A stretch of 64,000 bases of DNA from Fibrobacterota bacterium. GTDB lineage: Bacteria; Fibrobacterota; Fibrobacteria; UBA11236. Under the pieces are notes generated by a model. That model did no database searches, was not told the origin of the DNA, and saw nothing but the letters and a program-made list of their open reading frames with translations. Both the position numbers and the translations under genes were made by a program. The stretch spans positions 1-64,000 of the forward strand of contig JAHFCH010000007.1 in assembly GCA_023249635.1 (NCBI GenBank), in the 5' to 3' direction. Within the stretch, counting starts at the first letter, position 1. Every line of letters begins with the position of its first letter. This document shows positions 2 to 37,852 of the stretch, piece by piece.

Positions 2-2017
2 GGGCATTTCCTTAACGGCCTCGCCACCGACCATAAGAACCAGATCGCGGTAGACGCCAACACCGCCGAAGAACATTACTCCGACGCGACGCGCATGCCC
101 TACGTACAGGACAAGAACCGCGAAGGCGGCCGCGTGTTCGAGGATTTGATGGCCGGCGCCGAGATCCACACCGATCCCGTGGACGCCAACCTGCGCGCGG
201 GCGGAACCTTGTGGATGCAGGGAAGCCCCTTGACCATTTGGAAGCGCGATCCGCGTCCGCATCCCGCCTGGTACTACGAGTCCTACGAACCGGAGCAAAG
301 CTCCTCGCAGTACTACGTCCAGAAATTCTTCTACCGCCGCAACGACCTGGGCCGCGCCAGCTGGCCCAAAAAGGCCTTCGGCGGCATGGAAGTGGATGCC
401 TACCGCCTGCCGGAGAATTTCGGATTGCAGGTGGACCTCGCGCAGCCTTCCAATATGCTGCCCAGCAAAACCGACGGCAACACCAACTCGCACCTGGGCG
501 ACGCCGAGGCGCTGGAGTCCATCAACAGCATCGGGCAGCTGTTCTACGGCCGGCTCAACCGCCAGCGCACCTTCAAGGACGTGAACGTAGGCGCCAATCT
601 GCTGTGGGTGGAGATCCCGCGGGACATCATCGACCAGAAGATCTTCAACCCCAACGCCCTGCAGGGCTATAAGTACCAGTTCGAACGCAGCGGCATGGAC
701 CCGTTCTACGTCAACCCCCGCGTCTTCAGCGTGGACACCCGCGGTAACCTGGCTCCGGGCCTGTTCATCCAATCCGACGTGGCCATCGGCATCCAGGATA
801 CCAGCCGCTTCGCCAAGATCATGGTCGACGGCAAACCCGTATGGAACGGCGGCAGCCCGGTTTCCCATGCCAAGAGCGATCCCGCCGGCGCTGCCTACCT
901 CAAGCTGAACAGCAGCGGCCCCATGCCCATGGAAGGCGAAGTCTTTTTCGCCGCCAAGGATTTCTGGTCGCCCTACGCCATCACCGAATACGCCGTGCCC
1001 GTGCACCGCGATGAGATGAAACTGGGTACGGGATCGTTCAGCTACCAGGCCAACCTCACCGGACTCAGTTGGAAGGTTTCCCCCAAGGTCACCACCGGAT
1101 TCCTGTCCATCACCCTGGGCCAGCATATGCAGGTGGAGAAGGGCAAGGACATCCTGCGCTTCCAGCACACCTTGAACGGGCGCGAAGCCTGGTACTCGAG
1201 CTCGTCGTGGTCCCGCACCGAGCCGGGCCGCTATATGGACGAGGGTGGGCCCTATGGCAATCCCCGCTACGAATCCCGCGTGGGCGACATAAAGCCCAGC
1301 AGCGATGTTTTGCATCTGCAAAACCAAATCGGCGGCTTGCACGGCGACGACCTGGAGATATGGGAAGAGTTCGCGGCCTTCGACAACGCCGCCCAGGCCA
1401 ATTCGGGGCAGATCCCGGAGCATCAGAAATATTCCTTCACCTCGGCGCTTGATTGGGGTTACAACCTCGGCTCCTTGCTGGGCATGGAGCGCCCCTTCAT
1501 GATTGCGCTGTACAGTCAGGTGAACACCATCTCCACCAAACTGGTGGGCCCGCTCAAGAACAACAACACCTTGCTCTGGTCGGGCTTGGGCCGTTTTGAG
1601 CCGGCCCTGTCGCTTTCCAACAGCTTCCAGCTCATAGGGCTGGTGGGATTGGAGACCTGGAAATCGGACAAGGCCTTCCGCAACAAGCTGGCGAACAAGC
1701 AAAGCGTCGCCGTCGCATCGTTCGGTTACCAGGCCGTCAAGGACGCCGGCGGCAAGGACATTTCCTACGACAACATCCATTACTACGAGCCCATCTCCAG
1801 CTACGCGGGCGCCTCGGTCCCGGAGCCCCTGGTGGACGCCGAAGCGTCGCCCATCGACTATCTGCAAATGGCCTACGGCGGCGGCTTCGACTGGGATTTC
1901 AGCCAGCGGGCGGGCATCCATGTGCGGGCGAAGTACGCTTCGCATAAGGACGCCAATCTTCCCTCCAACAACTGGGACGGCATGTTCCTCTTCGGGGAAA
2001 CCAAGATATGGTTCTGA
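2..2017 (+). CDS. Large outer-membrane protein, 5' truncated by window edge
   Basis: The reading frame is open from base 2 with no stop upstream of the first internal ATG (95), so the true start lies outside the window and at least 671 residues are present. The product is rich in alternating polar/aromatic segments with many Tyr, Trp and Asn, and it ends in a C-terminal Phe (KIWF), a common last residue of outer-membrane beta-barrels. A segment reading GSPLTIWKRDP echoes the YSPLTLWTPEL and YSPLTLYSPGL segments of the next two genes, so it may be a distant relative. Its stop lies inside the next gene (10-base overlap), pointing to one transcript. No enzyme motif is visible. Outer-membrane location is inferred from composition and C-terminus; substrate unknown. 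Confidence 0.6.
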   Translation, partial: GHFLNGLATDHKNQIAVDANTAEEHYSDATRMPYVQDKNREGGRVFEDLMAGAEIHTDPVDANLRAGGTLWMQGSPLTIWKRDPRPHPAWYYESYEPEQSSSQYYVQKFFYRRNDLGRASWPKKAFGGMEVDAYRLPENFGLQVDLAQPSNMLPSKTDGNTNSHLGDAEALESINSIGQLFYGRLNRQRTFKDVNVGANLLWVEIPRDIIDQKIFNPNALQGYKYQFERSGMDPFYVNPRVFSVDTRGNLAPGLFIQSDVAIGIQDTSRFAKIMVDGKPVWNGGSPVSHAKSDPAGAAYLKLNSSGPMPMEGEVFFAAKDFWSPYAITEYAVPVHRDEMKLGTGSFSYQANLTGLSWKVSPKVTTGFLSITLGQHMQVEKGKDILRFQHTLNGREAWYSSSSWSRTEPGRYMDEGGPYGNPRYESRVGDIKPSSDVLHLQNQIGGLHGDDLEIWEEFAAFDNAAQANSGQIPEHQKYSFTSALDWGYNLGSLLGMERPFMIALYSQVNTISTKLVGPLKNNNTLLWSGLGRFEPALSLSNSFQLIGLVGLETWKSDKAFRNKLANKQSVAVASFGYQAVKDAGGKDISYDNIHYYEPISSYAGASVPEPLVDAEASPIDYLQMAYGGGFDWDFSQRAGIHVRAKYASHKDANLPSNNWDGMFLFGETKIWF

Positions 2018-4104
2018 GCAAAGCGGCTTCCGTATTCGCCATCACGGCCCTGGCCGTGGGGGCCCAGACCCTGACCGACCGGCTGGAGGAACCTTCGGAG
2101 CGTATCCTCGCCAAGCACGGCGTGGACATCGAAGGGAAATTGCAGGCGGAGTATTTCCGCTCGGGATTGGACGGCACCGCCATGGCCGATACCAATTACT
2201 CCTTCGAGACCTCGCAGTTCACCTACTTCGACCTGGGAATGCAATACCGCGCCTTCGATTGGGTTACCGCCAAGGCCGACCTGCGTTTCTACCAGGATTG
2301 GCAAACCTTCTTCGCCACCCGCAGCCGCATCCTGGCCGCGCGCTGGTTGAGCGTGGACGGCAACATCGCCAACGCGCTGGCCTTCAGCGCCGGCGATTTC
2401 CACCAGAAGTATTCGCCGCTCACATTGTGGACGCCGGAACTGGAAATGACCTACGAGCCCGCCATTTTCGCGCGCATGCGCAAGGATTTGATGGACGAGC
2501 AGTACCTGGGCGACAATGACCGCGCCTTGCAGGGCCTCAACCTCAATTTCGCCCGCCGCTTCGAATCAGCCGTGAACGAGGTGCGTCTCGACGCCGTGGC
2601 CTCCCGCGTCCGCCGCGGCGAGTACCTGGATTCCAACGGCTATCAGGGCCACAAGTTCGCCAAGTCGGATATGGACCGCTTTCTGGTCGGCGCCAATGCC
2701 GAGGCCTTCGTGAAGAACAACCTGTACGTGGGCGGATCGTTCCTCACCCTGCTAGACGATCGCGCCAGCTTCCGGCAATCCCTCAACTCCCAGGATGTGC
2801 TCGATTTCTTCCACGGCCGCAAAGATGCAACCGGCAAACCTTTACCCGCCGCTCCCGGCTGGTCCATGAACGACCGTGATTCCGTGGTGGCCCGTAACCT
2901 GCAGATTACCTCGGGCCGCGCGGGAGCCGATATCGCCGGCTTCCTGGGCAACGAAAACCTGGTGCTCGAATTCACCGGCGAGTACGCGCTGTCCCACGAA
3001 GACAACCGCTTTGCCTGGCATTTCACCCCGGACACCACCGGTGGCTTCCACTACGTATCCACCGAAGGCGCGGCTCCCGGCAAGGACGGCAAGGCCCTGA
3101 TGGCCGAGATGGAAGCCGGCTACCGCCGTCCGGACAGCCTATACGCGGTCAATCTCTCCGCCGTCTACCTCAACAACGAAGCCGCCTTCCTGAATCCCCT
3201 CGCGCAAAGCCCCAGCTTCTCGGGCGCGCGCATCATGAACACGGAGAACGATTTCGGCAACGGCCGGCTCTACTCCGCTTTCGACGCGCTTTACGATGGC
3301 GTCTACAAGTTCAGCCCTTCCAGCCGCCAGGCCAACGCGACCACCGCCTATCAGCAGGCGCCCATTTCCAAGACCTCGTACAATAACGGCGTGCTTTCGC
3401 CGGAGGATCTCAAGTCCTTCACCCCCGAGCCCACGTTGCAATTGACCCTGCCGTTCGGGTACGCCACCCCCAATCGTACCGGTCCCGTGATCGGGCTTAC
3501 CGCCTCGTGGCGCAACACCCTGCATGCCTCGGTCGACGCGGCCATGCTCAAGGAAATCACGGGCGGGACCCTGGAAGGTACCCTCTTGCCGCTGGCGAGC
3601 CTGTCCCGCATGGGCGGCGGCCTCCTGCTCGAAGCCGGTAAGCTCCTCGGCACCCGCGCCTTGGACGTTTCCGCCAGCTTTACCCGCAACGAACTGAAGC
3701 GCGATCACAGCGCCAAGGATTTGGCGGACCCGAATACCACCGCCGACCTGGCCATGGCGGGGCTGCGCTGGAAGTTCCTCAAGAAGTGGGGATTCCTGGC
3801 AGGCTTCCAACAGGCCAAGATTTCCAAGCAGACCTTGGTAAGCGAAGCGGATCCCGCCGCCCCGGCCACCACCCATGTATACCAGTATCGCCAGGATGAT
3901 ACCCAGAACCACGTGCGCGCCGGGCTGGAATACTCCCTGACGCGCAATGCCTACGTGCTGGTTTCGGGTGGCCTCATCAGCGTGGATCGCGGGCTCAAGA
4001 ACCAGGGCACCACCGCCAACGCGGCCGGTCCCGTGGCCGCGCGCGATTCGCAAAAGGATTTCACCCAGACGCTCTCCCAGGCCGTCATCAAAGTCGGATT
4101 CTAG
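2008..4104 (+). CDS. Outer-membrane beta-barrel protein, paralogue A
   Basis: The 698-residue product begins with a hydrophobic signal peptide (MVLSKAASVFAITALAVGAQ) and ends in VGF, a typical barrel C-terminus. It aligns along its length with the next gene: YQDW versus HQDW, GDFHQKYSPLTLW versus GDFHGNYSPLTLY, EPAIFARMRKDLMDEQ versus EPEIFAARRQMAMDEW, RIMNTEN...FDALYDGVY versus RILNSAN...FDALYNHVY, and GYATPNRTGP versus GPATPNRQGI. These pairs mark an old tandem duplication. The ATG overlaps the end of the preceding gene by 10 bases. No TonB box or plug domain was recognised, so it is not an obvious SusC-type receptor. Role inferred: surface binding or passage of glycans or chitin fragments, given the hexosaminidase and chitinases downstream. 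Confidence 0.65.
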   Translation: MVLSKAASVFAITALAVGAQTLTDRLEEPSERILAKHGVDIEGKLQAEYFRSGLDGTAMADTNYSFETSQFTYFDLGMQYRAFDWVTAKADLRFYQDWQTFFATRSRILAARWLSVDGNIANALAFSAGDFHQKYSPLTLWTPELEMTYEPAIFARMRKDLMDEQYLGDNDRALQGLNLNFARRFESAVNEVRLDAVASRVRRGEYLDSNGYQGHKFAKSDMDRFLVGANAEAFVKNNLYVGGSFLTLLDDRASFRQSLNSQDVLDFFHGRKDATGKPLPAAPGWSMNDRDSVVARNLQITSGRAGADIAGFLGNENLVLEFTGEYALSHEDNRFAWHFTPDTTGGFHYVSTEGAAPGKDGKALMAEMEAGYRRPDSLYAVNLSAVYLNNEAAFLNPLAQSPSFSGARIMNTENDFGNGRLYSAFDALYDGVYKFSPSSRQANATTAYQQAPISKTSYNNGVLSPEDLKSFTPEPTLQLTLPFGYATPNRTGPVIGLTASWRNTLHASVDAAMLKEITGGTLEGTLLPLASLSRMGGGLLLEAGKLLGTRALDVSASFTRNELKRDHSAKDLADPNTTADLAMAGLRWKFLKKWGFLAGFQQAKISKQTLVSEADPAAPATTHVYQYRQDDTQNHVRAGLEYSLTRNAYVLVSGGLISVDRGLKNQGTTANAAGPVAARDSQKDFTQTLSQAVIKVGF

Positions 4105-4109
4105 GAAGG

Positions 4110-6437
4110 ATGGAAACGGTGTCTTTTACTCCCAAGTTCCCGGCCGCGGCCGCGCTTTCGTTGGCCCTCGCTCTCGCCCTCCCGAATCCGGCCGCCGCCA
4201 AATCGCCGCGCCCCGCCGCCAAGGCCGCGGTGCTGGCCAAAGCCGCCATCGCGGCGGATTCGGCCACGGCTGCCGCCGCTGCGGGCGCCACCTCCCCGGC
4301 TGCGCAACTCGCGCTGGGCGAAGCTGCCGAAGACACGATCACCAGCGAAGCCGCTCCCGCCGCTATCGCCCCGGCCGCTCCCGCGGAACCGGCCGACATC
4401 GCTCCCGCTCCCACCCCCGCCCCGGAAGCCGCTGCCGCCAAGGTACCGGAAGCCAGCCTTCCCGAACGCATCGCGGGCTGGGAACGCAATCAGTTGGGCG
4501 TTACCATCCAGGGCACGACCTCTTCGCGCTTCATCCAATCGTCCATAGGCGGCAAGAGCGCAACCATCAATCAGCCGACCCATGAGAATCTGGCGTATTC
4601 CCGCGCCGATGTGCAATTCACCGCGCGCCCCAGCACTTCCACCTACGGCAAGCTGGATTTCCGCCTGCACCAGGATTGGGAGAATTATTACGACGAAGGC
4701 CCCAATCCCTTGCTGGCCCGCTGGTTCGAATTCGGCGGCACCATTTGGGATGAGAAGATCAAGTTCGGCTTCGGCGATTTCCACGGCAACTACTCGCCGC
4801 TTACCTTGTACTCCCCGGGCCTGGCCCTGCCCAATGAACCCGAGATTTTCGCGGCCCGCCGCCAAATGGCCATGGACGAGTGGCATCTCGATGGCAGCGG
4901 CCTTCCCCTGCAGGGCTTCCACGCCGACTATAGCGATCGCATTACCCCGGGTTTCTCCCTCTCCGCCGGCGCCATCGCCTCGCGCCTGCGCACCGGGGCC
5001 AGCTCGACTTCGACCTGGCTGTACTGGACCGACGACGTGGAGAAGCTGATGGGCGCGGGCTACCTCAAGGCCGAATTCTTCGGCGGCCTGGAAGCCGGCG
5101 TCAGCCGCATCCAGATCGTGGATCCCGTCAAGACCAGCCGCGCGCTGAACAATGAATACGTGCAACACTCTCCCACGGCCATGTTCGAGGACGTGACCGT
5201 AAACGCGGCCAGCCTGTCGTACGACGCGAAAAACCTGGTGCAGGCCAAGCCTATCGCCTTGAAGCTGGGCGTGGAGTTCGCGCAGTCGACTTATATGCCT
5301 GCCCACGACCGCGTCGACACCACCGGCTTCTATACTACCCAGGAAATCGTGGATCAAGCCGGCACAGTCGCTCCGGTGCGGCATCCCATCCTCGGCCTGC
5401 TCCATGTGCAGGACACCGAGCTCAAGGACGACGCCTTGCGCGCCACCTTGCACGCGGGATGGCGCGAAACCGAGACCGGTCCTTTGGGTCTGTCCCTGGA
5501 CGCGGCCTTCCTGCGCAACGGAAAAGATTACGTGAACGACGTGGCCCAGTCCCCGGAATTCCTGGGCCGGCGCATCCTCAACTCGGCCAACCAGGTCAAG
5601 GGCTTCGGCGGGTATAATACCTTCGACGCCCTCTACAACCATGTCTACACAGTGGATCCCGTCACCAGCGCCAACACCTCGGAATGGTGGGCCACGGATA
5701 CCAAGACCTACAACGGCACCAACAATTGGTTCCGCGCGCCCCAGTTCAAGAACTCGTATACCAACGTGGCCATGACCCGCTCCGAACGCGTAGCCTCGGC
5801 CGGCGCCCTGGATCCGCAATTGCAGATGCTCTATCCCTACGGCCCCGCCACCCCCAACCGCCAGGGCATCGACGCCGCGCTCTCGGCGAAAATCCTGGAC
5901 GGCAAAATCGAAGCCGGTATCCAGTTCGCCAGCCTCAAGGAACAGGACGGCCATGTTCTCGATTCGGCCACCGCCGCTCCGGGCCTGGCGTTCGGACGCA
6001 TCGGCGCCGGCGTAAAAGTGCAGGCCGGCCAATGGCTGGGATGGGATAAGCGCATCACCGTGAGCGCCGGCTACCTGGCGGACAACGCCAAGCAGGCCGC
6101 GTACTCCTATAAAGACACCGCCTACGCCGAAGCCAACGTCAAGTCGGCGCTCCTCAATGCCGGGTTGTATGCCAACGTATGGAAGGGATTATCTTTCCTC
6201 GCGGGTTACCAGCAGATCAAATCCAACCCGTACCGGGGATACACCGTGGCAGGCAAAACCAAGACGGCCGATCAGGCGGATTTGACCCAGGGCAATTGGG
6301 CCGTGGGCCTGGAATACCGCATCGCCGCCGGCGTTTACGCCACCGCCGAATACGGCGCCATCTCCCTGGACGAAGCCAAGTCCGCAACCGCCTTTTCGCA
6401 GAAGCTGGTCAGTGGCGGCCTTGTAGTAGGCTTCTGA
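4110..6437 (+). CDS. Outer-membrane beta-barrel protein, paralogue B, with Ala/Pro-rich N-terminal spacer
   Basis: The 775-residue product starts with a signal peptide (about residues 1-30) followed by roughly 90 residues very rich in Ala and Pro, with scattered Glu and Lys. The part homologous to paralogue A begins near residue 120. It ends in VVGF, as expected for a barrel. The gene starts 5 bases after the stop of paralogue A, and an AGGA lies just before the ATG. Its stop codon overlaps the ATG of the GH20 gene (ATGA), so the barrel and the hexosaminidase are probably translated together. The low-complexity spacer is absent from paralogue A and may cross the periplasm or contact peptidoglycan; this is inference. 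Substrate unknown. Confidence 0.65.
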   Translation: METVSFTPKFPAAAALSLALALALPNPAAAKSPRPAAKAAVLAKAAIAADSATAAAAAGATSPAAQLALGEAAEDTITSEAAPAAIAPAAPAEPADIAPAPTPAPEAAAAKVPEASLPERIAGWERNQLGVTIQGTTSSRFIQSSIGGKSATINQPTHENLAYSRADVQFTARPSTSTYGKLDFRLHQDWENYYDEGPNPLLARWFEFGGTIWDEKIKFGFGDFHGNYSPLTLYSPGLALPNEPEIFAARRQMAMDEWHLDGSGLPLQGFHADYSDRITPGFSLSAGAIASRLRTGASSTSTWLYWTDDVEKLMGAGYLKAEFFGGLEAGVSRIQIVDPVKTSRALNNEYVQHSPTAMFEDVTVNAASLSYDAKNLVQAKPIALKLGVEFAQSTYMPAHDRVDTTGFYTTQEIVDQAGTVAPVRHPILGLLHVQDTELKDDALRATLHAGWRETETGPLGLSLDAAFLRNGKDYVNDVAQSPEFLGRRILNSANQVKGFGGYNTFDALYNHVYTVDPVTSANTSEWWATDTKTYNGTNNWFRAPQFKNSYTNVAMTRSERVASAGALDPQLQMLYPYGPATPNRQGIDAALSAKILDGKIEAGIQFASLKEQDGHVLDSATAAPGLAFGRIGAGVKVQAGQWLGWDKRITVSAGYLADNAKQAAYSYKDTAYAEANVKSALLNAGLYANVWKGLSFLAGYQQIKSNPYRGYTVAGKTKTADQADLTQGNWAVGLEYRIAAGVYATAEYGAISLDEAKSATAFSQKLVSGGLVVGF

Positions 6438-8308
6438 TGCCCCGACTCCTTCGCCTTCCAACCGCCCCCTGGGCCAAGGAACTGGCGCGCCTTTACCCGG
6501 GCGCGTTCTCCCTGACCCGGGGCCTCCGGGTCCATCTCCATCCCGGCCTGGAAAGCGGCTATGCCGCGGCCGAAGAGGACGACGGCTTCCATATCGCCTA
6601 TCGCGGGCTCGACGATCTGATGTTGGCGCTGGGCGATCAGCTTTCCGGAACGCTCCCGGCGGACGGCGCCAAGACCCCCGCCCTGGCATTCCGCGGCATC
6701 ATGTTGGATGCCAGCCGCAATGCCGTCCCGCGCGCCGATTTCCTCAAGGACCGCATCGCCCGCATGGCCTTGTTGGGCCTCAACAAATTCTGCCTGTACA
6801 CGGAAGATACCTACCCGGTTGCCGGTGAGCCCTTGTTCGGCTACGCCCGCGGCCGGTATACGGAAAAGGATCTGCGCGCGGTGGCGCGCCATGCCGCCGC
6901 TTTCGGCGTGGAGATGTTCCCCTGCATCCAGACCCTGGGACACATGGAGCATATCCTCAAGTACCCGCATTACTCGCCCCTCAAGGACAACGAGTACGTG
7001 TACAACGTATTCGCTCCCGACCTGTACGCCTTCATCGAAAAGACCATCGACGCCGCCATGGCGCCCTACGCCACCAAGCTGATCCATATCGGCATGGACG
7101 AAACCTTCGGATTGGGCCGTGGCCTGGCCTTCAAGGAAGGCGAACCCGTCTTTCCGCGCAAGCTGTACGTGGCCCACGTGGCCAAGGTGGTGGAAATCTG
7201 CCGCGCCAAAGGCCTGACCCCGGTCATTTGGGGCGATATCGTGCTGGGCCATGGCGGTGAGCAGTCCATGGGCGCCGAAGAGATGTCCGCGCTCCCCAAA
7301 GACGTGGTCATGGACTACTGGAATTACGCCTGGGACGATCCCGCCAAGTACGATCGCGAGATCGGGGATTTCGCCAGGCTGGGCTACGACCCGATCGTCT
7401 CCCCCGGCATCTGGTGCTGGTCGCGCTTCTTCCCGGCCTATTACAAGGCCGAGTCCAACGTGCGCACCTTGGTGGAAGCCGCCAAGCGGGCCAAGGCCCG
7501 CGGGGCCCTCAACACCCATTGGGGCGACGACGGCCACGAATGCTTCTTCGATTGGAACCTGCCGGCCCACACCTATTTCCTGGCGCAATGCACCGAGACG
7601 GCCGGCTCCCGTAACGTGCAGGCTACTGCCAAGCTGCGCTTCGCCGCCGCCTTCGGGGCCGATTTCGACGCCGTCCGCTCGGTGGAGGCCATCGATCTGG
7701 CGGGCACCAAGGCCGAGGCCCTCATCCCCGCCAATATCGGCAAATGCTTTTTCTACGACGACCCGGCCCAGGGCCTGTTCAGCGGGCTGCCCTTCGTGAA
7801 GCCGGCGGGCAAGTTCTACGCGGCCCAGGCCGCCAAGTTGGCCAAGCTCGCCAAGCCCAAGGGAATGTTCCAGACCCTGTTCCGCTTCGCCGAAGCCTTT
7901 TGCGCCTTCCTGGCGGTGAAAGCCGATCTTCGCCAGCGCGCCGCCAAGGCGTACAAGAAGAAAGACAAGGCCGGCATGCGGGCCGTACTCAAGGACATCG
8001 CGAGCGCGGAACGTCGCTTGGTGACCGCGCGGAACCTGTACCGCGCTTATTGGCTATCGGAACGCAGCCCATTCGGCCTGGAGATCGTGGACGGACGCAT
8101 GGGCATGCTGGCTTCCCGGCTGGACCATCTGCGCGGCCTGCTCAAGGACCATCTGGCCGGGCGCCTGCCCGTGCTGGAAGAGCTGGATTTCGACCATTAC
8201 TCGATGTACCACGATTCCCGCAGCCCCGACTACCAGCCTTCCATCTGGCCCGAATTCATGATCCATTACTCGGGCTTGGCCAGCCGTAATCCCATCAAAT
8301 GGTGGTAA
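6437..8308 (+). CDS. GH20-type beta-N-acetylhexosaminidase, no signal peptide
   Basis: Predicted to release terminal N-acetylhexosamine from chitooligosaccharides by GH20 substrate-assisted catalysis. The 623-residue protein has the family's (beta/alpha)8 signature: FRGIMLDASRN at the barrel entry and the Asp-Glu pair in IHIGMDE at D221-E222, the positions of the stabilising Asp and acid/base Glu in GH20. The C-terminal 150 residues are Lys/Arg-rich and helical. An in-frame codon exists upstream at 6179, but it lies inside the barrel gene. The ATG at 6437 overlaps that gene's stop and is preferred. No signal peptide is visible, so it should act in the cytoplasm on imported chitobiose-like sugars. 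A terminator follows immediately. Substrate preference (GlcNAc or GalNAc) cannot be read from the sequence. Confidence 0.8.
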   Translation: MPRLLRLPTAPWAKELARLYPGAFSLTRGLRVHLHPGLESGYAAAEEDDGFHIAYRGLDDLMLALGDQLSGTLPADGAKTPALAFRGIMLDASRNAVPRADFLKDRIARMALLGLNKFCLYTEDTYPVAGEPLFGYARGRYTEKDLRAVARHAAAFGVEMFPCIQTLGHMEHILKYPHYSPLKDNEYVYNVFAPDLYAFIEKTIDAAMAPYATKLIHIGMDETFGLGRGLAFKEGEPVFPRKLYVAHVAKVVEICRAKGLTPVIWGDIVLGHGGEQSMGAEEMSALPKDVVMDYWNYAWDDPAKYDREIGDFARLGYDPIVSPGIWCWSRFFPAYYKAESNVRTLVEAAKRAKARGALNTHWGDDGHECFFDWNLPAHTYFLAQCTETAGSRNVQATAKLRFAAAFGADFDAVRSVEAIDLAGTKAEALIPANIGKCFFYDDPAQGLFSGLPFVKPAGKFYAAQAAKLAKLAKPKGMFQTLFRFAEAFCAFLAVKADLRQRAAKAYKKKDKAGMRAVLKDIASAERRLVTARNLYRAYWLSERSPFGLEIVDGRMGMLASRLDHLRGLLKDHLAGRLPVLEELDFDHYSMYHDSRSPDYQPSIWPEFMIHYSGLASRNPIKWW

Positions 8309-8327
8309 GCCTCTAAGGCTTTTTTTT
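8307..8327 (+). terminator. Rho-independent terminator after the GH20 gene
   Basis: The stem AAGCC/GGCTT with loop TCTAA is followed by a run of T. It overlaps the GH20 stop codon. It should end the barrel-GH20 transcript and separate it from the chitinase genes. The stem is short, but the T-run is good. Confidence 0.65.
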
Positions 8328-8464
8328 CGGCTATTTTACCGCAAAATCGGCCCAAAAACGCCCATTCGTGGTGAACTGGATTTCATCACTTCTTGTTCCC
8401 GCCTTCTGGACAAAGCCCCCCTGCGGGCATAGGTTGTAACACGGAAGATCGGGAGAGTCTGTAG

Positions 8465-9589
8465 ATGCCTATCATCAAAAAATCCTTGCTTGCCCTCGGC
8501 CTTTTATGTTTTTGGGCAGCATCCCCGGCCACGGCCGCGCCCAAGAAACCGGTGCTGGCCTTCTACGCCCAATGGGACGCGCCCGGCTCGGTAGACTTCT
8601 CCAAGATTACCCATCTGCTCTTCGCCTTTTCCCTGCCCAACAGCGGCGGCAGCATCAACGGTTACGTCCCGGGCGGCGTAGTCTCCCAGGCCCATTCGGC
8701 GGGCGTCAAGTGCATGATCTCCATCGGCGGGGTGAACAACTCCTACGCCTTCCCCGGCATCGCCTCCGGGGCGCGCCAGGCCTTCGCGAGCAACATCAAG
8801 TCCATTCTCGACCAGAACAACGTCGACGGCGTGGACATCGATTGGGAGTTCCCCGCCAACGCGCAGGACAGCGCCAACTTCACCCTGCTGCTCAAGGCCA
8901 TCCGCTCCGCCATCGGCAGCAAGCTCATCTCCGTGGACGTGGCTCCGGACGGCGAGAAGGCGCAATGGATCAGCCGCTCGGCCACCGCCATCCCGGATTT
9001 CTGGAACGTGATGGCCTACGACTACACCGGCGACTTCGCGGGGTCCCTTATCGGCCAACATGCGCCGTACAACAAGGCCACCGTAGCCATGAATTACTGG
9101 CGCGCCAAGGGAGCGCCCAAGAATACCATCATCATGGGCGTGCCTTTTTACGGCAAGGATTTCAACGCCGGCGGTGGCGCGGTTTCCTACAGCCAGATCA
9201 TCGGCGGCAATCCCGGCCTCTCCAATGACGCCGATTCGGTGGGACGCACATGGTTCAACGGCGTCACCACCATCACCAAGAAGGCCACCTATGTGGCACA
9301 GCAATCCTACGGCGGCATCATGGTCTGGGAAGTGGCCCAGGACGCCGCGGGTTCCCGCTCGCTGCTGGACGCCATCGGCAAAGGCTTGCAGGCCGAGCCG
9401 GTATCCATCTCGGAATACCGCAAAGGCGCGGACGAAGCCGCCGGCCGCATGGGCGTTCCCGGCAAGACGTGGATCGCCTTGACCGGCGCGCAATCCGCCT
9501 CCCGACTCTCGATATCCGTCCCGACGCATGATGCGCTGGGGCATGCCCGCGTTTCCCCGCAAGCGTCCGGCGCATATTTTTCCCATTGA
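8465..9589 (+). CDS. Secreted GH18 chitinase (first of tandem pair)
   Basis: The 374-residue GH18 glycosidase is predicted to cleave chitin or related beta-1,4-GlcNAc polymers. It has a signal peptide (about residues 1-24, ending ATAA), the SIGG strand motif near residue 88, and the catalytic DGVDIDWEF motif with acid Glu at E128. MAYDYTG corresponds to the conserved Met-Tyr-Asp strand. A GGGAGAG ribosome-binding site lies 8 bases before the ATG. The last 30 residues contain a HDALGHARV segment resembling a degenerate type IX sorting tail. The 10-base gap plus a second GH18 gene downstream indicates a tandem pair with different tails. The fold is closest to compact single-domain bacterial chitinases, and no chitin-binding module is present. 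Confidence 0.85.
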   Translation: MPIIKKSLLALGLLCFWAASPATAAPKKPVLAFYAQWDAPGSVDFSKITHLLFAFSLPNSGGSINGYVPGGVVSQAHSAGVKCMISIGGVNNSYAFPGIASGARQAFASNIKSILDQNNVDGVDIDWEFPANAQDSANFTLLLKAIRSAIGSKLISVDVAPDGEKAQWISRSATAIPDFWNVMAYDYTGDFAGSLIGQHAPYNKATVAMNYWRAKGAPKNTIIMGVPFYGKDFNAGGGAVSYSQIIGGNPGLSNDADSVGRTWFNGVTTITKKATYVAQQSYGGIMVWEVAQDAAGSRSLLDAIGKGLQAEPVSISEYRKGADEAAGRMGVPGKTWIALTGAQSASRLSISVPTHDALGHARVSPQASGAYFSH

Positions 9590-11006: not shown

Positions 11007-13304
11007 TCAGCTGCCCCGTTCCGGATCCGAAGCCGGCCACCAGTTCCACTTCCCCGCCATCCGCATCAACGACGGGACCAACAGAACGCGGATGATGGTG
11101 GCGTCCACGAGCACGGCGACCGCCAATCCCAATCCCAGCATCTGCACCAGCACCACCCGTGCGAATGCGAAAGCGCCGAAAACGGCCACCATGATCATGG
11201 CGGCGTTGGTGATCATGCGACCCGTGGCGGCCACGCCTTCCGCGACCGCGCGGGTATTGTTACCCGTGCTCAGCCAACCTTCGCGTATCCGGCTCAGCAG
11301 GAACACTTCGTAATCCATGCTCAGGCCGAAGAGAATGCAGAAGATCATCAGCGGGATGGTCAGTGGCACCACGTCGGTGGGTCCGGGCGCCCCGAAGAGC
11401 GAAGCTCCGTAGCCCAGTTGGAACACGAAGACCACCATGCCGTACCCGGCCAGCACCGATAGCGCGTTCATGGCCAGCGCCTTGCAGGCGACCAGGGGGG
11501 AACGGAAGAAAGCCAGCAGGGCGGCGAAAGTCACCGCCAGTACGAACCCGATACTGGGCGCATAGGCCTTGCGCATGGAGCGATCGAAATCGTTGTAGTA
11601 GACGGCCTGCCCGCCCACTTCGACGCTGACGCCGGATGGGGCCAGCGAAGGCAGTTTACGCGCCAAGGTCTTCTGCTCCTCGAGCAGCACTTCGGGCTTG
11701 CAGAGCACCTCCATTAACAGGCTGCGGCCGTCCCGGCTCAGGTAGGCGTCGCGCACGAAGGGAACGGTTTCCCAGGCCGCGGCGGTGTCGGCATACAGGG
11801 ACAGGTATTTGGCCACGGGCCATTTGTCGGAAAGATCCACCGGCCCCAGGATGCGCGCTACGGCGGGATCCTTGCGGATGGCCGCGGAGAATCCGTACAG
11901 GGCGGGAATGCGCGAGGAATCCAGGATGCCCCCTTGGGGAGCGGTCAGAATGACATTGATGGGTCGTACCACCGACTCCAATCCCATCTTCTCCAGCATG
12001 GCGTAACCCCGAGTGAAGCCCAACTCCTGGGGGATGAAGGCGCGCTCCGGGAAGCCGAAGCGGGAGTAGCGCGCGGGCCAGGCCAACACCGCGATACAGG
12101 CCAATCCGATGCAGGCGCACAGGGGAGCGCGGCGCATCACCCATTCCGACCAGGCCCGCCAACGGGCTCCCGACCCCGCGCCCGCGAAACGACGGGAAAA
12201 TACCCGCGGCCATTCCAGCGCCCCTCCCAGCACTACCAGTAATGGCGGCAGCAAGGTAAGCGCCGCGGCCACCGACACGCACACCACTATGCAACCGCCC
12301 CAGCCGATGGATCGCGTTTCCATGATGGGCGTGAAAAAGGTCCCGCCCAGCCCGATCATCACGGTAAGGCCGCTCAGGAATACCGCCTGACCCGCCGTGG
12401 CCAGGCACTCCGCCATGGCCTCGCCCTGCAAGCGCCGATCGGGTTTCGCCCCCCGCGCGTCGCCCGCGCGCGCGGCCAAAGCCTCGCGGTAGCGATGCAC
12501 GATGAGCAGGCTATAGTCGATGCCCACGGAAAGCCCGATCATGCTTACCGTGCTTTGCACGATGTTGCTGACCACCCAATGGCCCGCGCACCATCCCACC
12601 GCGGCCATGGCCACCGTGGTCGCAACGATTCCGAGGGAGACGGGAATGCCGGAGGCCGCCACGGAACCGAAGGCGAGCAGCAGGATGATCAAGGTCAGGG
12701 GCAGCACCTTGCCTTCGGCCGCGGCGGTGTCCTTGGTACTGAACAGGTTCAGATCGTAGGTCAGCGCGGCCCGGCCGGTCACGGCCCAATCCAGACCAGG
12801 TCTGCCTTGGCGCACGGGCAGGAGTACCGAATCCACCGCTGCGCGCACGGCCGGGATGGCGAGCTCCGTCTCACGCACTGAAGCGGCTTTGATGCCGATC
12901 AGGATCACTTCGCCGGTGCCGGGCGCGGGCAACAAGCGTTTGTCCAGCATGGTTTCCGTCGTCATCACCGCGCCCGTCCAAGTCAAGCCGGAGAGCGCCT
13001 TATCGAGGCGCCGGACCAGATCGGAAAGCGAATCGGCGGCTGCGGTATCGCGCAGGGTAACCACGAGCAATTGCGAATAAGGGTTGGCGAAATCCGCGTT
13101 GAGCAGACTATCGGCCCGCAGCGAGGCGCTGCCGGCGATGTCTCCGGAGCCGCCGAAAAGCCGCGCCGGGGCCCGCTGGGAAAGCGGAGCGGCCAAGAGC
13201 AAAAGCAGCAGCCAGGCGCCCAGCAGCCACCATGGCCTGCGCGCGGCGAAAGCACCCAGCTTCGCGAACCCACCCGAGGGCGGCTTGCCTGAGAAGGATC
13301 GCAT
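11007..13304 (-). CDS. MMPL/RND-family lipid exporter
   Basis: The 765-residue inner-membrane protein has the two-fold MMPL layout: TM1 at about residues 27-45, a periplasmic domain, a bundle of about five TMs, a second periplasmic domain near 430-570, and a final five-TM bundle. Conserved MMPL segments GLSVGIDYSLLIVHRYRE and LFGLSMDYEVFLLSRIRE are present in the two halves; their Asp-Tyr pairs are the usual proton-relay residues. MMPL and HpnN-type proteins move lipids or hydrophobic products to the periplasm or outer membrane using the proton gradient. It is the last gene of the lipid operon, 4 bases after the SRPBCC gene, so it probably exports the operon's product. The cargo cannot be read from the sequence. 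Confidence 0.85.
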   Translation of the reverse strand: MRSFSGKPPSGGFAKLGAFAARRPWWLLGAWLLLLLLAAPLSQRAPARLFGGSGDIAGSASLRADSLLNADFANPYSQLLVVTLRDTAAADSLSDLVRRLDKALSGLTWTGAVMTTETMLDKRLLPAPGTGEVILIGIKAASVRETELAIPAVRAAVDSVLLPVRQGRPGLDWAVTGRAALTYDLNLFSTKDTAAAEGKVLPLTLIILLLAFGSVAASGIPVSLGIVATTVAMAAVGWCAGHWVVSNIVQSTVSMIGLSVGIDYSLLIVHRYREALAARAGDARGAKPDRRLQGEAMAECLATAGQAVFLSGLTVMIGLGGTFFTPIMETRSIGWGGCIVVCVSVAAALTLLPPLLVVLGGALEWPRVFSRRFAGAGSGARWRAWSEWVMRRAPLCACIGLACIAVLAWPARYSRFGFPERAFIPQELGFTRGYAMLEKMGLESVVRPINVILTAPQGGILDSSRIPALYGFSAAIRKDPAVARILGPVDLSDKWPVAKYLSLYADTAAAWETVPFVRDAYLSRDGRSLLMEVLCKPEVLLEEQKTLARKLPSLAPSGVSVEVGGQAVYYNDFDRSMRKAYAPSIGFVLAVTFAALLAFFRSPLVACKALAMNALSVLAGYGMVVFVFQLGYGASLFGAPGPTDVVPLTIPLMIFCILFGLSMDYEVFLLSRIREGWLSTGNNTRAVAEGVAATGRMITNAAMIMVAVFGAFAFARVVLVQMLGLGLAVAVLVDATIIRVLLVPSLMRMAGKWNWWPASDPERGS

Positions 13305-13308
13305 AGGC

Positions 13309-13887
13309 TTAGGTCCCCGTCTCCACGAGCCGCTTCACGTTGTTCATGTTGCGGACGAAGATATCGTTCACGCGGTACGCCGACAGGTACATGCAGAAGG
13401 ACTCGATCAGTGAAGGTTTCCGATCCTTGAAGAAGAAGGTGAAGGTCAGGCGCATCTTGCCGTTCCCCAAATCCTGGTACAGCTGTTCCGTGGCTAGGCC
13501 CTGGGCGCTTACGGGGAAATCCACGAAGGCGTAACAGATCAGTTGGCGTTTCTTCCCCGGAACCATTTCGGTGATGGTTTCGTCCCAACGCCGCCCGCTC
13601 TCATCGCCCTTGCAGAAGCAGCGCCGACGCGCGCCGGGCTGGCCGTCCTTGATGCTGTCGGCATTGAGCGGTTTGATATGGTTTACGAACACGGACCAGC
13701 GCCGAGCGTTGTCCGAGTTGCCCAGGAAGCGGAACACGGAATCCGGGGTGGCATTGATTTCCACGCTGGTCTTCATCAGGGGATACGCGAACCCCTCCTT
13801 TTTGCCGTATGGGCTTAAGGCGATCGCGGCCGCCAGGCCGAGTACCGATACCGCCACGATTGCGAGCAGGATTTTCTTCCCCGTCAT
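13309..13887 (-). CDS. Membrane-anchored SRPBCC (START/polyketide cyclase-like) protein
   Basis: The 192-residue protein has one N-terminal transmembrane helix (about residues 5-26), followed by a SRPBCC-type domain. The domain opens with KTSVEINATPDSVFRFL and continues through NARRWSVFVNHIKPL, the usual start of this helix-grip fold, which binds hydrophobic ligands in a deep cavity. No catalytic residues can be assigned. Its ATG overlaps the stop of the diiron oxygenase gene (ATGA), and the MMPL exporter follows 4 bases later. A role as a lipid carrier or handling protein between the tailoring enzyme and the exporter is inferred. It could equally be a cyclase or dehydratase. The anchored domain is probably periplasmic. 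Confidence 0.7.
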   Translation of the reverse strand: MTGKKILLAIVAVSVLGLAAAIALSPYGKKEGFAYPLMKTSVEINATPDSVFRFLGNSDNARRWSVFVNHIKPLNADSIKDGQPGARRRCFCKGDESGRRWDETITEMVPGKKRQLICYAFVDFPVSAQGLATEQLYQDLGNGKMRLTFTFFFKDRKPSLIESFCMYLSAYRVNDIFVRNMNNVKRLVETGT

Positions 13888-14861
13888 GCTTGGAACTCCT
13901 CTTTGGTCACCGCCAGGAACATGGGCCAGAGCCCGTCCAGTTCCGGGTACTCGGCGAACAGGGCCATGGCCTTGGGCACGCTGCCGCGGCTGAAGGCCAG
14001 GTCATGGAAATCCCGACTGGTTCCCAACCCGATCAATTCCGAACGCATGGCGGGGATGATTTCCGTCCGCAGGCGCGGGAATTCCTCCCCCAGCATGGCC
14101 ATCACGCCGCCGGGTATGTTCTTGGGATAGACGTATCCGCGCATCAACGCGGTAAACATCTTTCCCGCCAGGCGGCGTTTCCAGGCCGGCTGGGGATCGT
14201 AAAGCCAGGTAAGCAGATGCTGGTCGAGCTGGAAATGCCGGATCTCATCCTTGAAATGGAACTCCTGCACCTCCGTGAAGCTCTCGTCGATGCCGGCGGG
14301 ATCTTCCTTGCGGGCCTTCAGGTAGTTCCGGCAATAGTCCACCGTGCGTTCCTCGAAAAAGATGGCCACCCAAATCCAGGCGATGAACAGCTTGGGCAGG
14401 GAGAGCACCGCGTTCACCAGCATGCGGGTCGCGCGCGGCACCAGGTAGACGCGGAATTCCCTGCGCTTATACCAGGTAGGCTCGGCCTTTTCCAGGGTGC
14501 GCCAGAACATCTCGGTATGCTTGATTTCCTCATCGATGAAGGTATCCAGGGCCGTGCGCAAGGGAGCGGGCACGTCGGCGCGCTTGAGTACGCGCCTAAG
14601 CGTCTTCACCAGGAAGTTCTCTTCCAGCCAGATGATCTGCTCGCAGATGCCCATGGCGTAGAGCTGGTTGCAGCGGCGCTTCTCCTCCGGGGAGAGCTTG
14701 GCATAGGAGGGCAGGTAGTACATGGAGATAAGCTGCTCGGGCGCCCAGAAGCGGCCCCGTTCCACCGGGCGGGCCCAGTCCAGGGCCTCCACGCCGAAAG
14801 CGTTTTCAACCGCCTTACGGTTGAGCACGTCCAAGGTGCCCACGTCCTTGCGCGGTTTCAT
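13884..14861 (-). CDS. AurF-like diiron oxygenase
   Basis: The 325-residue all-helical protein carries a full set of likely diiron ligands: E112-x-x-H115 (in DEEIKHTEMF), E170/E171 (in FFEERT), then H202, E206 and H209 (in EFHFKDEIRHFQ), plus a Glu in the first helix (E80/E81). The H-x3-E-x2-H arrangement in the last helix is the one that distinguishes the AurF/CmlI N-oxygenase family from ordinary ferritin-like enzymes, which have E-x2-H only. The start at 14861 overlaps the upstream stop (ATGA); a longer frame to 15056 lies inside that gene. It probably oxidises a C or N centre on the operon's product. AurF enzymes convert amines to nitro groups, but other members hydroxylate carbon, so the reaction is open. 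Confidence 0.65.
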   Translation of the reverse strand: MKPRKDVGTLDVLNRKAVENAFGVEALDWARPVERGRFWAPEQLISMYYLPSYAKLSPEEKRRCNQLYAMGICEQIIWLEENFLVKTLRRVLKRADVPAPLRTALDTFIDEEIKHTEMFWRTLEKAEPTWYKRREFRVYLVPRATRMLVNAVLSLPKLFIAWIWVAIFFEERTVDYCRNYLKARKEDPAGIDESFTEVQEFHFKDEIRHFQLDQHLLTWLYDPQPAWKRRLAGKMFTALMRGYVYPKNIPGGVMAMLGEEFPRLRTEIIPAMRSELIGLGTSRDFHDLAFSRGSVPKAMALFAEYPELDGLWPMFLAVTKEEFQA

Positions 14862-17515
14862 TCCGCCTCCAACAGGGTTACCGTGCCCGCGCCCGCATCG
14901 ACTTCCACCAGGTCGCCGTCCTTGATGCGGTTGATGAGATTCTCGATGCCCACCACGGTAGGGATGCCCATCTCCCGCGCCACGATGGCGGAATGCGAGA
15001 GCACGGATCCCTTTTCGATCAAGAGGGCGCTGATGGAAGGATATAAGGGGATCCAACCGGGATCGGTGCGGGGCGCCGCCAGGATTTCCCCGGATAAGCG
15101 CAAGTCGTCTTCAGGGGATTTGATGACGCGCACCTTACCCCGGACCTTGCCCGCGCAGCAGGATTGGCCGCGCAGCACGTTGCCCTCGGCATTCCCGATC
15201 GCGGTTTCGGTCGCGTAGGTCTGGCGATGGTACGGCAGGCCCACGGTATGGAAACGCTCCGCAGGCTCGCCTTCGGCCTCGAAGCCGGCGTATTCCTTTT
15301 TGCGCATCTCGGCCACGGCGCGCAAATCCTGGGTCAGGGAGCGGCCTTCGGCATAAGCCTGCAGTTCGGGGATGGACAGGAAGAAAACATCCTCGCGGCG
15401 ATCGAGGACACCGGCATCGGTCAAAGCCTTTCCGTACGACAGCACCAGGCGCCGCACCAGCCCGTACAGGCGGCTGCGGGCGAAGCGCATGGCTTCGCGA
15501 TTGCGGATGTTGCGGGCGGCTCCCTTGCGCACATAGTTGAAAACCAGCGCCCGCAGGGGATTTCCGCGCAATGCCTTGGCGGCCTTGGCTTCCGCGCCCT
15601 CGCGCAGGCCAGCGGAAGAATGTTTCAAGGTGGCCAACGCCATTTCCGGCGCGGAGAAATAATTCTTCAAGGTGGTGAAGATGAAGGCGGGGTCCTCTTC
15701 CAGCGTAGGCACTTCCAGCTTCAGTTCGTTCATCGATCGGCTGCCGTACAGGCGAAGGTACCCGTCCAGCCAGGCCAGGAAATTCCGCGCGCCCGGTTTT
15801 GACGAGGCGCGCACCGCTTCCAGCAGCTTTGCCGCCGGCGTCGCCTGGAACAAAGCCGCCAAGTCCGCATCCCCGCGGATTTCCGCGAAGCATTCCAGGA
15901 TCTTGCGCGTAGGCTCGGTGCTTTCCACGTCGCCCTGGTTGGACAAAAGATCGTTGGGGAAATTGGGATCGTCCGGGGCCACCCATTTGGTGGAGAGGCC
16001 TGCCAGGGTCTTGTAGAAGATCATGGCCAGGCAATCGGCCAGAATGGGGGCCTGCCACCGCTTGGTAAACACCTGTACCATGCGTTCGTGATGCTCCATC
16101 AGGCGCTGGGGGGAAAGGCTGTCCCAGGGCAGCGCCAGGTAGGCCGCATGATTGCGGGCGAACTCGGCCTGGAATCGCCGTATACGCGCCTGGGCCCGGA
16201 AGGCGGACCATGCCACCAGTGCGAGCAGGCGCCCGGCCTCGTAGAGCTGCCCCGGCCCCATGCCGCGCTTGCGCTCCAGGGTCTTGATCTCCATGCCATG
16301 GCGTACGCCCATCATGGTTTCCATGGCCTTGCCGGTGAAGCGGAAGAAAGGCAGGAAGCTCATGGACTTGTACCAGGTCATCAGGTTGTAGTACACGCGC
16401 CCGCGGATAAGCCCCAGGTAGTTGCGCAGCAGCAGTTGGTTGGCTTCCTGCACTTCGCGGCGGATGCCCAGCATGCGGCCGAATTGCTCGTACACTTCCT
16501 GGTAGCCGTGGGTGATCACGGAGAAGGTGAGCGGCGAGGTGAGCCCGTTGTAGCTCTCCACGATGTTGGAATTGTCCCACAGGATCTTGCGGCCCCAGCG
16601 GGCCCGCTCGCCCTTGTCGCCCAGGGTGATGGGCCGCGCCTGCAACAGGTAGAGGCGCCCGGCCAGGAAGGTGAATTCCAGATCCAGGGGTTGCCCGTAA
16701 TGGGCCTCGATGGCGAGGGCGGCATGCTTAAGCGATTCCAATTGCCCGCGATCCAGGCAGGGCTTCCCTTGCATGGCTTCGGCCACGGCCGCCTCGACGG
16801 TGCCGGAGGCGCCCGCGGCGGCCAGCCGCAGGGGTTTGGCGACCACGCGTTCCGCGTAGAGGCCCGCATCCCGGGACAAGGTGAATTGATCCCCTTCGTA
16901 CCGGCCCGAGACGATGCCCTCGCCCAAGCCCCAGGTAGCGGAAACCACAAGTTCGCCGACGTCGCGCGTCACCGGGTTTGCCGTGAAGCAGACTCCCGAA
17001 ACCTCGCCGGAAACCATGGCTTGCAGGACCACGGCCATGGGCGGCGTGGGCAAGGCGAAGCGTTGCCGATAGGTTACGGCGCGATCGGAGAATACCGAAG
17101 CCCAGCAGCGCAATACCGCGTCCAGCACGGCACCCGCATCCGCGGCGGGAACGTTCAGGACGGTTTCGAATTGGCCCGCGAATGAGGCCTCCGCCGCGTC
17201 TTCGCCCAGGGCGGAAGAGCGGACGGAGAGGAAGGCATGGCCTTCGGCGAGCAGAGCGCGGCGATGGGATTCGATTTCGCCGCGGAGTCCGGCATCGGTC
17301 TGCAAACCCTGGATGGCGGCGCGCAGGGCGGAGGCATCCGCGGTGGCGGCCTTGGCGTCCACGACCGGTCCCGCGCTGCGGCGGAACCAGCCGGCGTCCA
17401 ATACCCGGAAGGGCGGAACGGTTACGTGAGGCAGGCGCGCAAGGATGCGCAGGTTGGCGGCTTTACCGCCTTCTTCCGCATTCGCGGCCGGGGTGGGCAT
17501 CGCGGTCTCCTTCAT
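14858..17515 (-). CDS. PEP-synthase-like phosphotransferase (rifampicin-phosphotransferase architecture)
   Basis: The 885-residue protein has an N-terminal PPDK/PEP-synthase ATP-binding domain (residues 1 to about 300; LSVRSSALGEDAAEASFAGQ near 96-115, then LYLLQARPIT at its end). A long helical middle (about 310-770) has no recognised domain, and a C-terminal swivelling phosphohistidine domain follows, with the phospho-carrier His at H841 in VLSHSAIVARE. The PEP/pyruvate TIM barrel of true PEP synthases is absent. This is the layout of rifampicin phosphotransferase: ATP to His, then His to a non-pyruvate acceptor. In this operon it probably phosphorylates a lipid or alcohol intermediate (inferred). 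Its ATG overlaps the UbiA stop (ATGA). No signal peptide; cytoplasmic. Confidence 0.75.
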   Translation of the reverse strand: MKETAMPTPAANAEEGGKAANLRILARLPHVTVPPFRVLDAGWFRRSAGPVVDAKAATADASALRAAIQGLQTDAGLRGEIESHRRALLAEGHAFLSVRSSALGEDAAEASFAGQFETVLNVPAADAGAVLDAVLRCWASVFSDRAVTYRQRFALPTPPMAVVLQAMVSGEVSGVCFTANPVTRDVGELVVSATWGLGEGIVSGRYEGDQFTLSRDAGLYAERVVAKPLRLAAAGASGTVEAAVAEAMQGKPCLDRGQLESLKHAALAIEAHYGQPLDLEFTFLAGRLYLLQARPITLGDKGERARWGRKILWDNSNIVESYNGLTSPLTFSVITHGYQEVYEQFGRMLGIRREVQEANQLLLRNYLGLIRGRVYYNLMTWYKSMSFLPFFRFTGKAMETMMGVRHGMEIKTLERKRGMGPGQLYEAGRLLALVAWSAFRAQARIRRFQAEFARNHAAYLALPWDSLSPQRLMEHHERMVQVFTKRWQAPILADCLAMIFYKTLAGLSTKWVAPDDPNFPNDLLSNQGDVESTEPTRKILECFAEIRGDADLAALFQATPAAKLLEAVRASSKPGARNFLAWLDGYLRLYGSRSMNELKLEVPTLEEDPAFIFTTLKNYFSAPEMALATLKHSSAGLREGAEAKAAKALRGNPLRALVFNYVRKGAARNIRNREAMRFARSRLYGLVRRLVLSYGKALTDAGVLDRREDVFFLSIPELQAYAEGRSLTQDLRAVAEMRKKEYAGFEAEGEPAERFHTVGLPYHRQTYATETAIGNAEGNVLRGQSCCAGKVRGKVRVIKSPEDDLRLSGEILAAPRTDPGWIPLYPSISALLIEKGSVLSHSAIVAREMGIPTVVGIENLINRIKDGDLVEVDAGAGTVTLLEAE

Positions 17516-22455: not shown

Positions 22456-22469
22456 GGGAAATCCTTGGT

Positions 22470-25011: not shown

Positions 25012-25100
25012 GGATACGACGCACCTGAAGGCGCATATTGATAGGAAGAAAGGGCGGTGTTTACCGGAACAAGGTCAAATGCCCCAAATTGAGGACGGAA

Positions 25101-25331
25101 TCAGGGAATAAACGCGGAGGGCGCGGGCTTCGGGGGAGCGCCGGGTTCGACGTTTTTGGCCCAGCGGATGACGGGTCCAACACCCTCCTCCTCCGCCACG
25201 GTAGGCAGGAAACGTCCCGACCCCACCGAACCTACGCGGATCTCACGACGATCGGCGGGCGCCGGCCAGGCAGCGGCTTTTTTGACGGTCTTTACGGCCT
25301 TTGTGACCGCTCTTTTGACTGCGCTTTCCAT
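25101..25331 (-). CDS. Small Lys/Ala/Pro-rich protein of unknown function
   Basis: The 76-residue product has a basic, Ala/Lys/Val-rich N-terminal half (MESAVKRAVTKAVKTVKKAA), likely an amphipathic helix, followed by a charged stretch and a Pro-rich tail. A GAGG ribosome-binding site lies 7 bases before the ATG, which supports translation. It sits 14 bases after the GH81 gene and about 90 bases before the lipid operon, all on the same strand, so it could belong to either transcript. No signal peptide and no known domain. It may be a nucleic-acid- or membrane-binding peptide, but that is a guess from composition only. Confidence 0.5.
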   Translation of the reverse strand: MESAVKRAVTKAVKTVKKAAAWPAPADRREIRVGSVGSGRFLPTVAEEEGVGPVIRWAKNVEPGAPPKPAPSAFIP

Positions 25332-25345
25332 AGGTACCTCGTGTG

Positions 25346-28031: not shown

Positions 28032-29579
<1,548 letters not shown>

Positions 29580-37826: not shown

Positions 37827-37852
37827 TTTTTGTTTCTCCCGGTTCCATTCCC

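Follow-up and report, generated by a model that had tools for sequence, protein, structure and literature searches.

A probable outer-membrane barrel operon with a GH20C hexosaminidase in Fibrobacterota, a candidate uptake route for glycan oligomers

Results

Genes and gene order of the locus

The window analyzed here, bases 1–64,000 of contig C105 in a 6.75 Mb draft genome of a Fibrobacterota bacterium (G000), opens with genes for three outer-membrane β-barrel proteins (B1, B2 and B3), followed by genes for a GH20 hexosaminidase and two GH18 chitinases (Table 1). The open reading frames of the barrels and the GH20 enzyme were confirmed, are co-directional and are translationally coupled: B1 and B2 overlap by 10 nt, a gap of 5 nt separates B2 from B3, and the B3 stop and the GH20 ATG overlap as ATGA.

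Table 1 Features of the locus (window coordinates)
Feature	Position	Strand	Evidence or remark
B1, outer-membrane β-barrel protein	2..2017	+	5′ end and start codon cut off by contig edge
B2, ~22-strand outer-membrane barrel, no N-terminal plug	2008..4104	+	AlphaFold2 model, family alignment
B3, B2 paralog with long Ala/Pro-rich N-terminal stretch ahead of barrel	4110..6437	+	Sequence, tree
GH20C exo-β-N-acetylhexosaminidase, no signal peptide	6434..8308	+	PF00728, PF18088, PDB relatives, catalytic pair
Intrinsic-terminator-like stem-loop with T-run	8307..8330	+	Position at GH20C stop, T8 run
Secreted GH18 chitinase a, motif DGVDIDWE intact	8465..9589	+	Pfam family match, motif
Secreted GH18 chitinase b, motif AGVDIDWE, catalytic Glu intact	9600 (or 9615)..10874	+	Pfam match, motif

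The barrel and GH20 genes probably form one operon and the two GH18 genes another, the first ending at the GH20 gene because the stem-loop with its T8 run lies directly 3′ of that stop codon. Terminator-like matches in the region are no commoner than in shuffled sequence, and the case rests on position and the T8 run; the single promoter-like site in the region lies on the opposite strand and does not exceed chance.

When the gene upstream of B1 in a congener was used to search the genome, the missing B1 start was located on contig C291, where the first ~113 codons (L168:7932-8270) run to the contig's last base. They are preceded there by a gene, U (L168:6958-7935), for a secreted protein with a CBM30/CBM11-like domain; also encoded on C291 are two GH18 proteins, one protein with a PA14 domain and another with a Por secretion tail. 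The genus is represented by six genomes (G000 and G155–G159) and its family, f1, by ten, including four of a sister genus. In G158 the order U, B1, B2, B3, GH20C, GH18a, GH18b is contiguous; G159 has U, B1, B2, B3, GH20C and a single gene of GH18a type, beyond which a second GH18 match lies close by. Since the two further genomes of the genus with this locus (L063/L158 and L064) repeat the order, it is not due to chance. The mature N-termini of U in these genomes (L168:6958-7935, L158:8721-9686 and L064:16515-17420) contain short TonB-box-like stretches (LPTKTVIGK, LPERSVIG and LPDRAVTG, respectively).

Enzymes of the locus

The GH20 protein matches the catalytic domain PF00728 (5.5e-13) and PF18088, the GH20C C-terminal domain (3.1e-32), retains the catalytic Asp-Glu pair (HIGMDE), and has N-acetyl-β-D-glucosaminidases as its closest relatives in the PDB (2epk, 8e-52; 5a69, itself a GH20C enzyme, 4.6e-51). 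This combination of a catalytic domain with the Asp-Glu pair and the C-terminal domain places it in subfamily GH20C. It has no signal peptide and is therefore probably cytoplasmic. Both GH18 proteins (Pfam 9.6e-46 and 1.2e-32) have N-terminal signal sequences and the motif DxxDxDxE including the catalytic Glu, the first Asp being replaced by Ala in the second, and would be expected to act on chitin outside the cell. Three points of a preliminary description of this DNA are thus borne out: the coupling of three barrels to a GH20 enzyme, the leaderless nature of that enzyme with its ATG overlapping the last barrel's stop, and the two secreted chitinases that follow.

Barrel proteins without a named family

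B1, B2 and B3 have no match among Pfam and NCBIfam families, and sequence searches of the PDB returned no relative beyond weak generic porin matches; single relatives weakly match the OMP_b-brl, Porin_4 and OmpF models. Each of the three barrel proteins has Phe as its last residue. B2 and B3 are 29% identical, and B1 is related to them only remotely, through profile comparison (hhalign, 97%, E 1e-10). The preliminary description had counted two barrel paralogs and a related larger protein; the true paralogs are B2 and B3, B1 is not a close paralog, and the set also includes U.

Structure prediction, which that description had suggested as a check, covered B2 and a B1 homolog and returned large barrels. 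The AlphaFold2 model of B2 (pLDDT 83.4, pTM 0.84) has ~22 strands, and that of the B1 protein of L158 (full-length, same genus, 73% identical; pLDDT 70.9, pTM 0.75) has ~24–26. Counted with the signal peptide, strand 1 starts at residue 38 in B2 and residue 70 in B1, too near the N-terminus to leave room for the plug of a TonB receptor, and the Plug domain (PF07715) was matched by neither B1–B3 nor any aligned relative. In both the B2 model and the family alignment, residues ~391–489 form a long, strongly conserved segment without strands. Foldseek and VIA matches are spread at similar scores over ushers, AlgE, OprD-type porins, TonB receptors and chitoporin; TonB barrels occur among the VIA rows at Z ~12, along with many other barrels, the B2 model having ~22 strands. 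Such rows are generic for large barrels and were not used to assign function, and the absence of a family from them counts as no evidence; the comparison suggests that B1 and B2 are outer-membrane barrels and nothing more specific. In G000, ~80 Ala/Pro-rich residues lie between the signal sequence and the barrel of B3 (window 4110-4460), perhaps as a periplasmic spacer; a similar stretch is present in G158 and missing in G159.

Two locus types across the phylum

A scan of 84,980 species genomes yielded 108 barrel relatives, of which 80 were kept and underlie the neighborhood counts given below. All but three carry Fibrobacterota-type names, such as Fibrobacteres, Chitinispirillales and Fibrobacter. 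The B1–B2 loci L094, L107 and L108 lie on contigs titled Thermodesulfovibrionales, ‘bacterium’ and Draconibacterium; L094 may be mis-binned (its OppD is 89% identical to a Fibrobacterota protein), and L108, deeply diverged, may be a genuine case from beyond the phylum. Within the phylum, the B1 profile matches in 145 of 167 genomes and the B3 query in 146, and the B1/B2 pair is mostly single-copy.

Close to B1 lie B2 (78/80), a CBM30 protein, either U or a lipoprotein (75/80), a GH18-fold protein (47/80), an ATP-binding cassette (ABC) importer (26/80) and GH94 (6/80); Pfam identities were obtained for U, the lipoprotein, GH94, GH9 and the substrate-binding protein. Two arrangements can be distinguished. 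Type I loci comprise an ABC importer, B1, B2, a lipoprotein of ~1050 residues (CBM30, CBM11 and a TIM-barrel-like C-terminal part) and a GH94 phosphorylase, the last being replaced by GH1 and a GH9 cellulase in the window's genus. Type II loci comprise U, B1, B2 and B3, to which GH20C and GH18 are added in the window's genus and a small protein and a GH18-fold protein in Fibrobacteraceae. The window's genome has both: a type I locus divided between contigs C78 and C216 (B1–B2, ABC sugar importer, GH1, CBM30/CBM11 lipoprotein, GH9), and the type II locus, whose association of B1–B2 with a CBM30 protein is split between C291 (U and the B1 start) and C105 (B1–B2–B3) and is contiguous in G158 and G159.

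In the B2/B3 tree, B2 of the window groups with Fibrobacter B2 (SH-aLRT 99) and B3 of the window with Fibrobacter B3 (97). Type II is therefore one inherited locus, in which the duplication that gave B2 and B3 is older than the split of the two lineages. The linkage of barrels to GH20, for which a search of other genomes had been proposed, occurs in three genomes of the window's genus, that of the window included, and is restricted to that genus; outside it, GH20C and the barrels are on separate contigs where both were seen, and GH20C was dropped as a general partner of the barrels. Most barrel copies in the phylum adjoin cellulose genes or belong to Fibrobacter. The finding named beforehand as contrary to an uptake role, adhesins or efflux components beside unrelated genes, is not what these genomes display: the neighbors are oligosaccharide-type ABC importers, GH94, GH9 and CBM30/CBM11 proteins.

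The Fibrobacter version

For F. succinogenes S85, a published list gives Fisuc_1525 as a CBM30 protein that is secreted and Fisuc_1530 as a GH18 protein described with ‘cellulose binding’ (Suen 2011, PMC3079729). Four genes lie between them, matching the order U–B1–B2–B3–lip–GH18 in ~50 Fibrobacter contigs, and because of this spacing Fisuc_1526-1528 (FSU_2008-2010) are most likely B1–B3; no mention of these locus tags was found in the literature searched. Likewise, FSU_2012/Fisuc_1530 is most likely the GH18-fold protein of the Fibrobacter type II locus. That protein (L109-L161, for example L161:9866-10930) has the catalytic Glu in 0 of 46 copies and Gln in 40 of 46. With this residue lost, and in agreement with the listing as cellulose-binding, it is probably, to judge from sequence, a glycan-binding pseudoenzyme, although the F. 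succinogenes counterpart is annotated as a chitinase. FSU_2012 is also known as CBP-9; the chitinase assays used whole cells, and the activity is tied to FSU_2012 by abundance alone (Raut 2019, PMC6851124).

Co-occurrence with chitinases and cellulases

Within family f1, type II barrels, GH20C and 16–20 GH18 matches are all found in G000, G158 and G159 and are all absent from the other seven genomes, and type I B1 coincides with strong GH9 matches, both being confined to the same five genomes (G000 and G155–G158). Genome by genome, both locus types, GH9 and many GH18 are found in G000 and G158. Type I alone, accompanied by 5–6 GH9 but not by GH18, is found in G155, G156 and G157, and type II alone, accompanied by 16 GH18 matches and a single weak GH9, in G159; the four sister-genus genomes (2.2–2.7 Mb) lack both loci as well as GH18 and GH9. 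Both associations give Fisher p = 0.008 over the family, uncorrected for kinship, and are not significant within the genus alone (0.10 and 0.17). Matches to nagB are above the cut-off in G000 and G159 but not in G158. Across the phylum, B1 is found in 0 of 8 genomes without GH9 and in 145 of 159 with it (Fisher 2.5e-8, again uncorrected for kinship).

Surroundings of the locus

A malto-oligosyltrehalose-synthase-like gene lies a few kb from the chitin locus in G158 and G159. Its homolog in the window (30841-33645) is separated from the locus by ~20 kb (11007-30789) with MMPL transporter, polyketide-cyclase-like, AurF-like oxygenase and PEP-synthase-like genes, which looks like an insertion or a different neighborhood. 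Two adjacent, similar secreted proteins (35887-36756 and 36963-37886), a tandem duplication, are 69–74% identical to the product of a single gene near the chitin locus of G158.

Discussion

Our preferred reading, which we consider moderately probable, is that β-1,4-glycan oligomers, in the present case chito-oligomers, cross the outer membrane by way of the barrels, and that the locus in the window is the chitin variant of a Fibrobacterota uptake system. Secreted GH18 chitinases would cut chitin outside the cell, and U would collect chains or oligomers at the surface. B1, B2 and B3, presumably translated together, would form an outer-membrane complex that admits chito-oligomers to the periplasm, from where an inner-membrane importer encoded elsewhere would move them into the cytoplasm, the type I loci having an ABC importer beside B1–B2. 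GH20C would there trim GlcNAc from the non-reducing end, a place that GH94 may take as the intracellular enzyme of type I loci; the paralogous locus on C78 and C216 most likely handles cellodextrins in the same manner. As the barrels have no plug domain, transport could proceed by facilitated diffusion, the pull coming from binding in the periplasm and breakdown in the cytoplasm, or be gated by the long conserved stretch inside B2.

More tentatively, and with some inclination to doubt, we propose that B1 and B2 each contribute one subunit to an outer-membrane importer for oligosaccharides that represents a new class, with no kinship to SusCD or known porins. Nearly the whole phylum would use this importer; it would supply Fibrobacter's missing cellodextrin uptake step and would have been adapted to chitin in the window's genus. 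The presence of the barrels in cellulose gene clusters across the phylum makes them good candidates for the route by which Fibrobacter takes up cellulose fragments. The preliminary description had envisaged a distinct type of glycan uptake; the neighboring genes and the tracking of chitinases in family f1 speak for a glycan-uptake locus without SusCD, and what does not hold is specificity for chitin, the barrels being phylum-wide and mostly accompanied by cellulose genes.

Several observations weigh against the preferred reading. We infer sugar passage, complex formation, localization and substrate alike; the confidence of the B1 model is moderate, and no inner-membrane importer is encoded within the window locus. 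The three genomes with the chitin locus may be one clade, such that the family-wide correlation may reflect a single event, in keeping with the genus-only value of 0.10 for type II. B1 was not matched in 14 GH9-positive genomes, four of which are metagenome-assembled genomes (MAGs) of the Fibrobacter family, 62–81% complete. Fibrobacter, the largest type II set, has a GH18 protein without the catalytic Glu and no GH20C, and is not known to grow on chitin. Type II is therefore not chitin-specific by descent, and the idea that it is so everywhere was dropped once the Fibrobacter GH18 was found without its catalytic residue.

The barrels might instead form a surface adhesion or enzyme-scaffold complex that, with U, binds the polymer and holds CBM and GH proteins while oligomers enter through other porins or TonB receptors. 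Such receptors are present in nearly every genome of the phylum, and the pairing of the CBM30 protein U with an inactivated GH18 fold in Fibrobacter, the latter's probable F. succinogenes representative being listed as cellulose-binding (PMC3079729; as CBP-9, PMC6851124), would suit this role; we nevertheless regard it as unlikely, given the uptake-style arrangement of type I loci, in which B1–B2 have an ABC importer for sugars on one side and a phosphorylase or a glucanase on the other, and the translational coupling of a leaderless, oligomer-degrading GH20C to B3. That the barrels are general or major porins, co-regulated with glycan genes and without substrate specificity, fits the weak matches of a few family members to OMP_b-brl, Porin_4 and OmpF and the spread of solved-structure matches across many barrel families. 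This seems improbable, however, for proteins that are absent from the carbohydrate-poor sister genus (four genomes of 2.2–2.7 Mb) and from all genomes without GH9, that exist as separate copies for each substrate, and whose ~22 strands exceed those of general porins. Least of all do we expect the barrels to export something, such as a surface polymer or enzymes of the type IX secretion kind, in the manner of ushers, AlgE or secretion pores: FimD heads the VIA rows (Z 15.6) and AlgE scores 13–14, but OprD-type porins and TonB receptors score the same or almost the same, and these values reflect nothing beyond the size of the barrel; no chaperone, synthase or secretion gene was recognized in the loci examined.

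If B1–B2 are indeed an importer, they would fill the step of cellodextrin uptake in Fibrobacter; a 2019 paper called cellodextrin transport in F. succinogenes unknown. An operon-encoded barrel pair of no named family that is present in 145 of 167 phylum genomes and tracks cellulases and chitinases provides, moreover, a concrete candidate for tests in cultured strains. The soil relatives of Fibrobacter, the rumen cellulose-eater, appear to take up chitin fragments via barrels unlike known sugar importers, and a chitin version of the locus agrees with the report of a soil Fibrobacterota MAG rich in GH18/GH19 genes that feeds on fungal carbon (PMC9700909).

Comparison with known systems

On the preferred reading, the locus shares a secreted chitinase, an outer-membrane pore and intracellular GlcNAc breakdown with the proteobacterial chitin pathway (chitoporin ChiP, periplasmic hexosaminidase, and phosphotransferase system or ABC import). 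Chitoporins are 16–18-strand porins of the OmpC/OprD kind, whereas B1–B3 match none by sequence, and the chitoporin rows in Foldseek (7vu2) are no better than those of unrelated barrels. Like B1–B3, the PopA superfamily of lipid-trapping, porin-like proteins consists of unusual outer-membrane barrels with Fibrobacter members (FSU_2404 and FSU_0230; PMC12228718). Membership was considered and not adopted; these are other genes, described with 16 strands, a tight internal plug and ring-shaped oligomers, as against ~22 strands in the B2 model.

Within the same phylum, a report on Chitinispirillum alkaliphilum (PMC4814513) proposes that GH18 works in the periplasm and that GH20 degrades (GlcNAc)2-3 in the cytoplasm; unlike the present scheme, the passages of it that were searched name no outer-membrane carrier, and in phylum families other than that of the window, GH20C and the barrels lie on different contigs. 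The F. succinogenes genes Fisuc_1525-1530 (FSU_2007-2012) have in common with the window a CBM30 protein and a GH18 with four genes between them, provided that the matching of locus tags is right, and differ in that GH18 of the Fibrobacter relatives has no catalytic Glu and GH20C is missing.

An organizational parallel may be drawn with the Sus-like loci of Bacteroidota (SusC/SusD), which likewise cluster a surface glycan-binding protein, a barrel, a depolymerase and an oligomer-trimming enzyme, and occur as paralogous loci for individual substrates. Here, by contrast, there are two or three barrels of unnamed families in place of a TonB-dependent SusC, there is no SusD, and the exo-enzyme would be cytoplasmic rather than periplasmic. 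SusD was found neither in the window locus nor in the six genomes of the genus; the preliminary description was thus right about the absence of SusCD and TonB-receptor components from the locus, but not from the genome, which has 13 Plug matches. Over the phylum, SusD is present in 9 of 167 genomes and TonB-receptor plugs in nearly all, and SusCD-like loci may exist in a few Fibrobacterota lineages. Two features that define SusCD, SusD itself and the plug, are missing from the window locus, yet it appears to work like a polysaccharide utilization locus.

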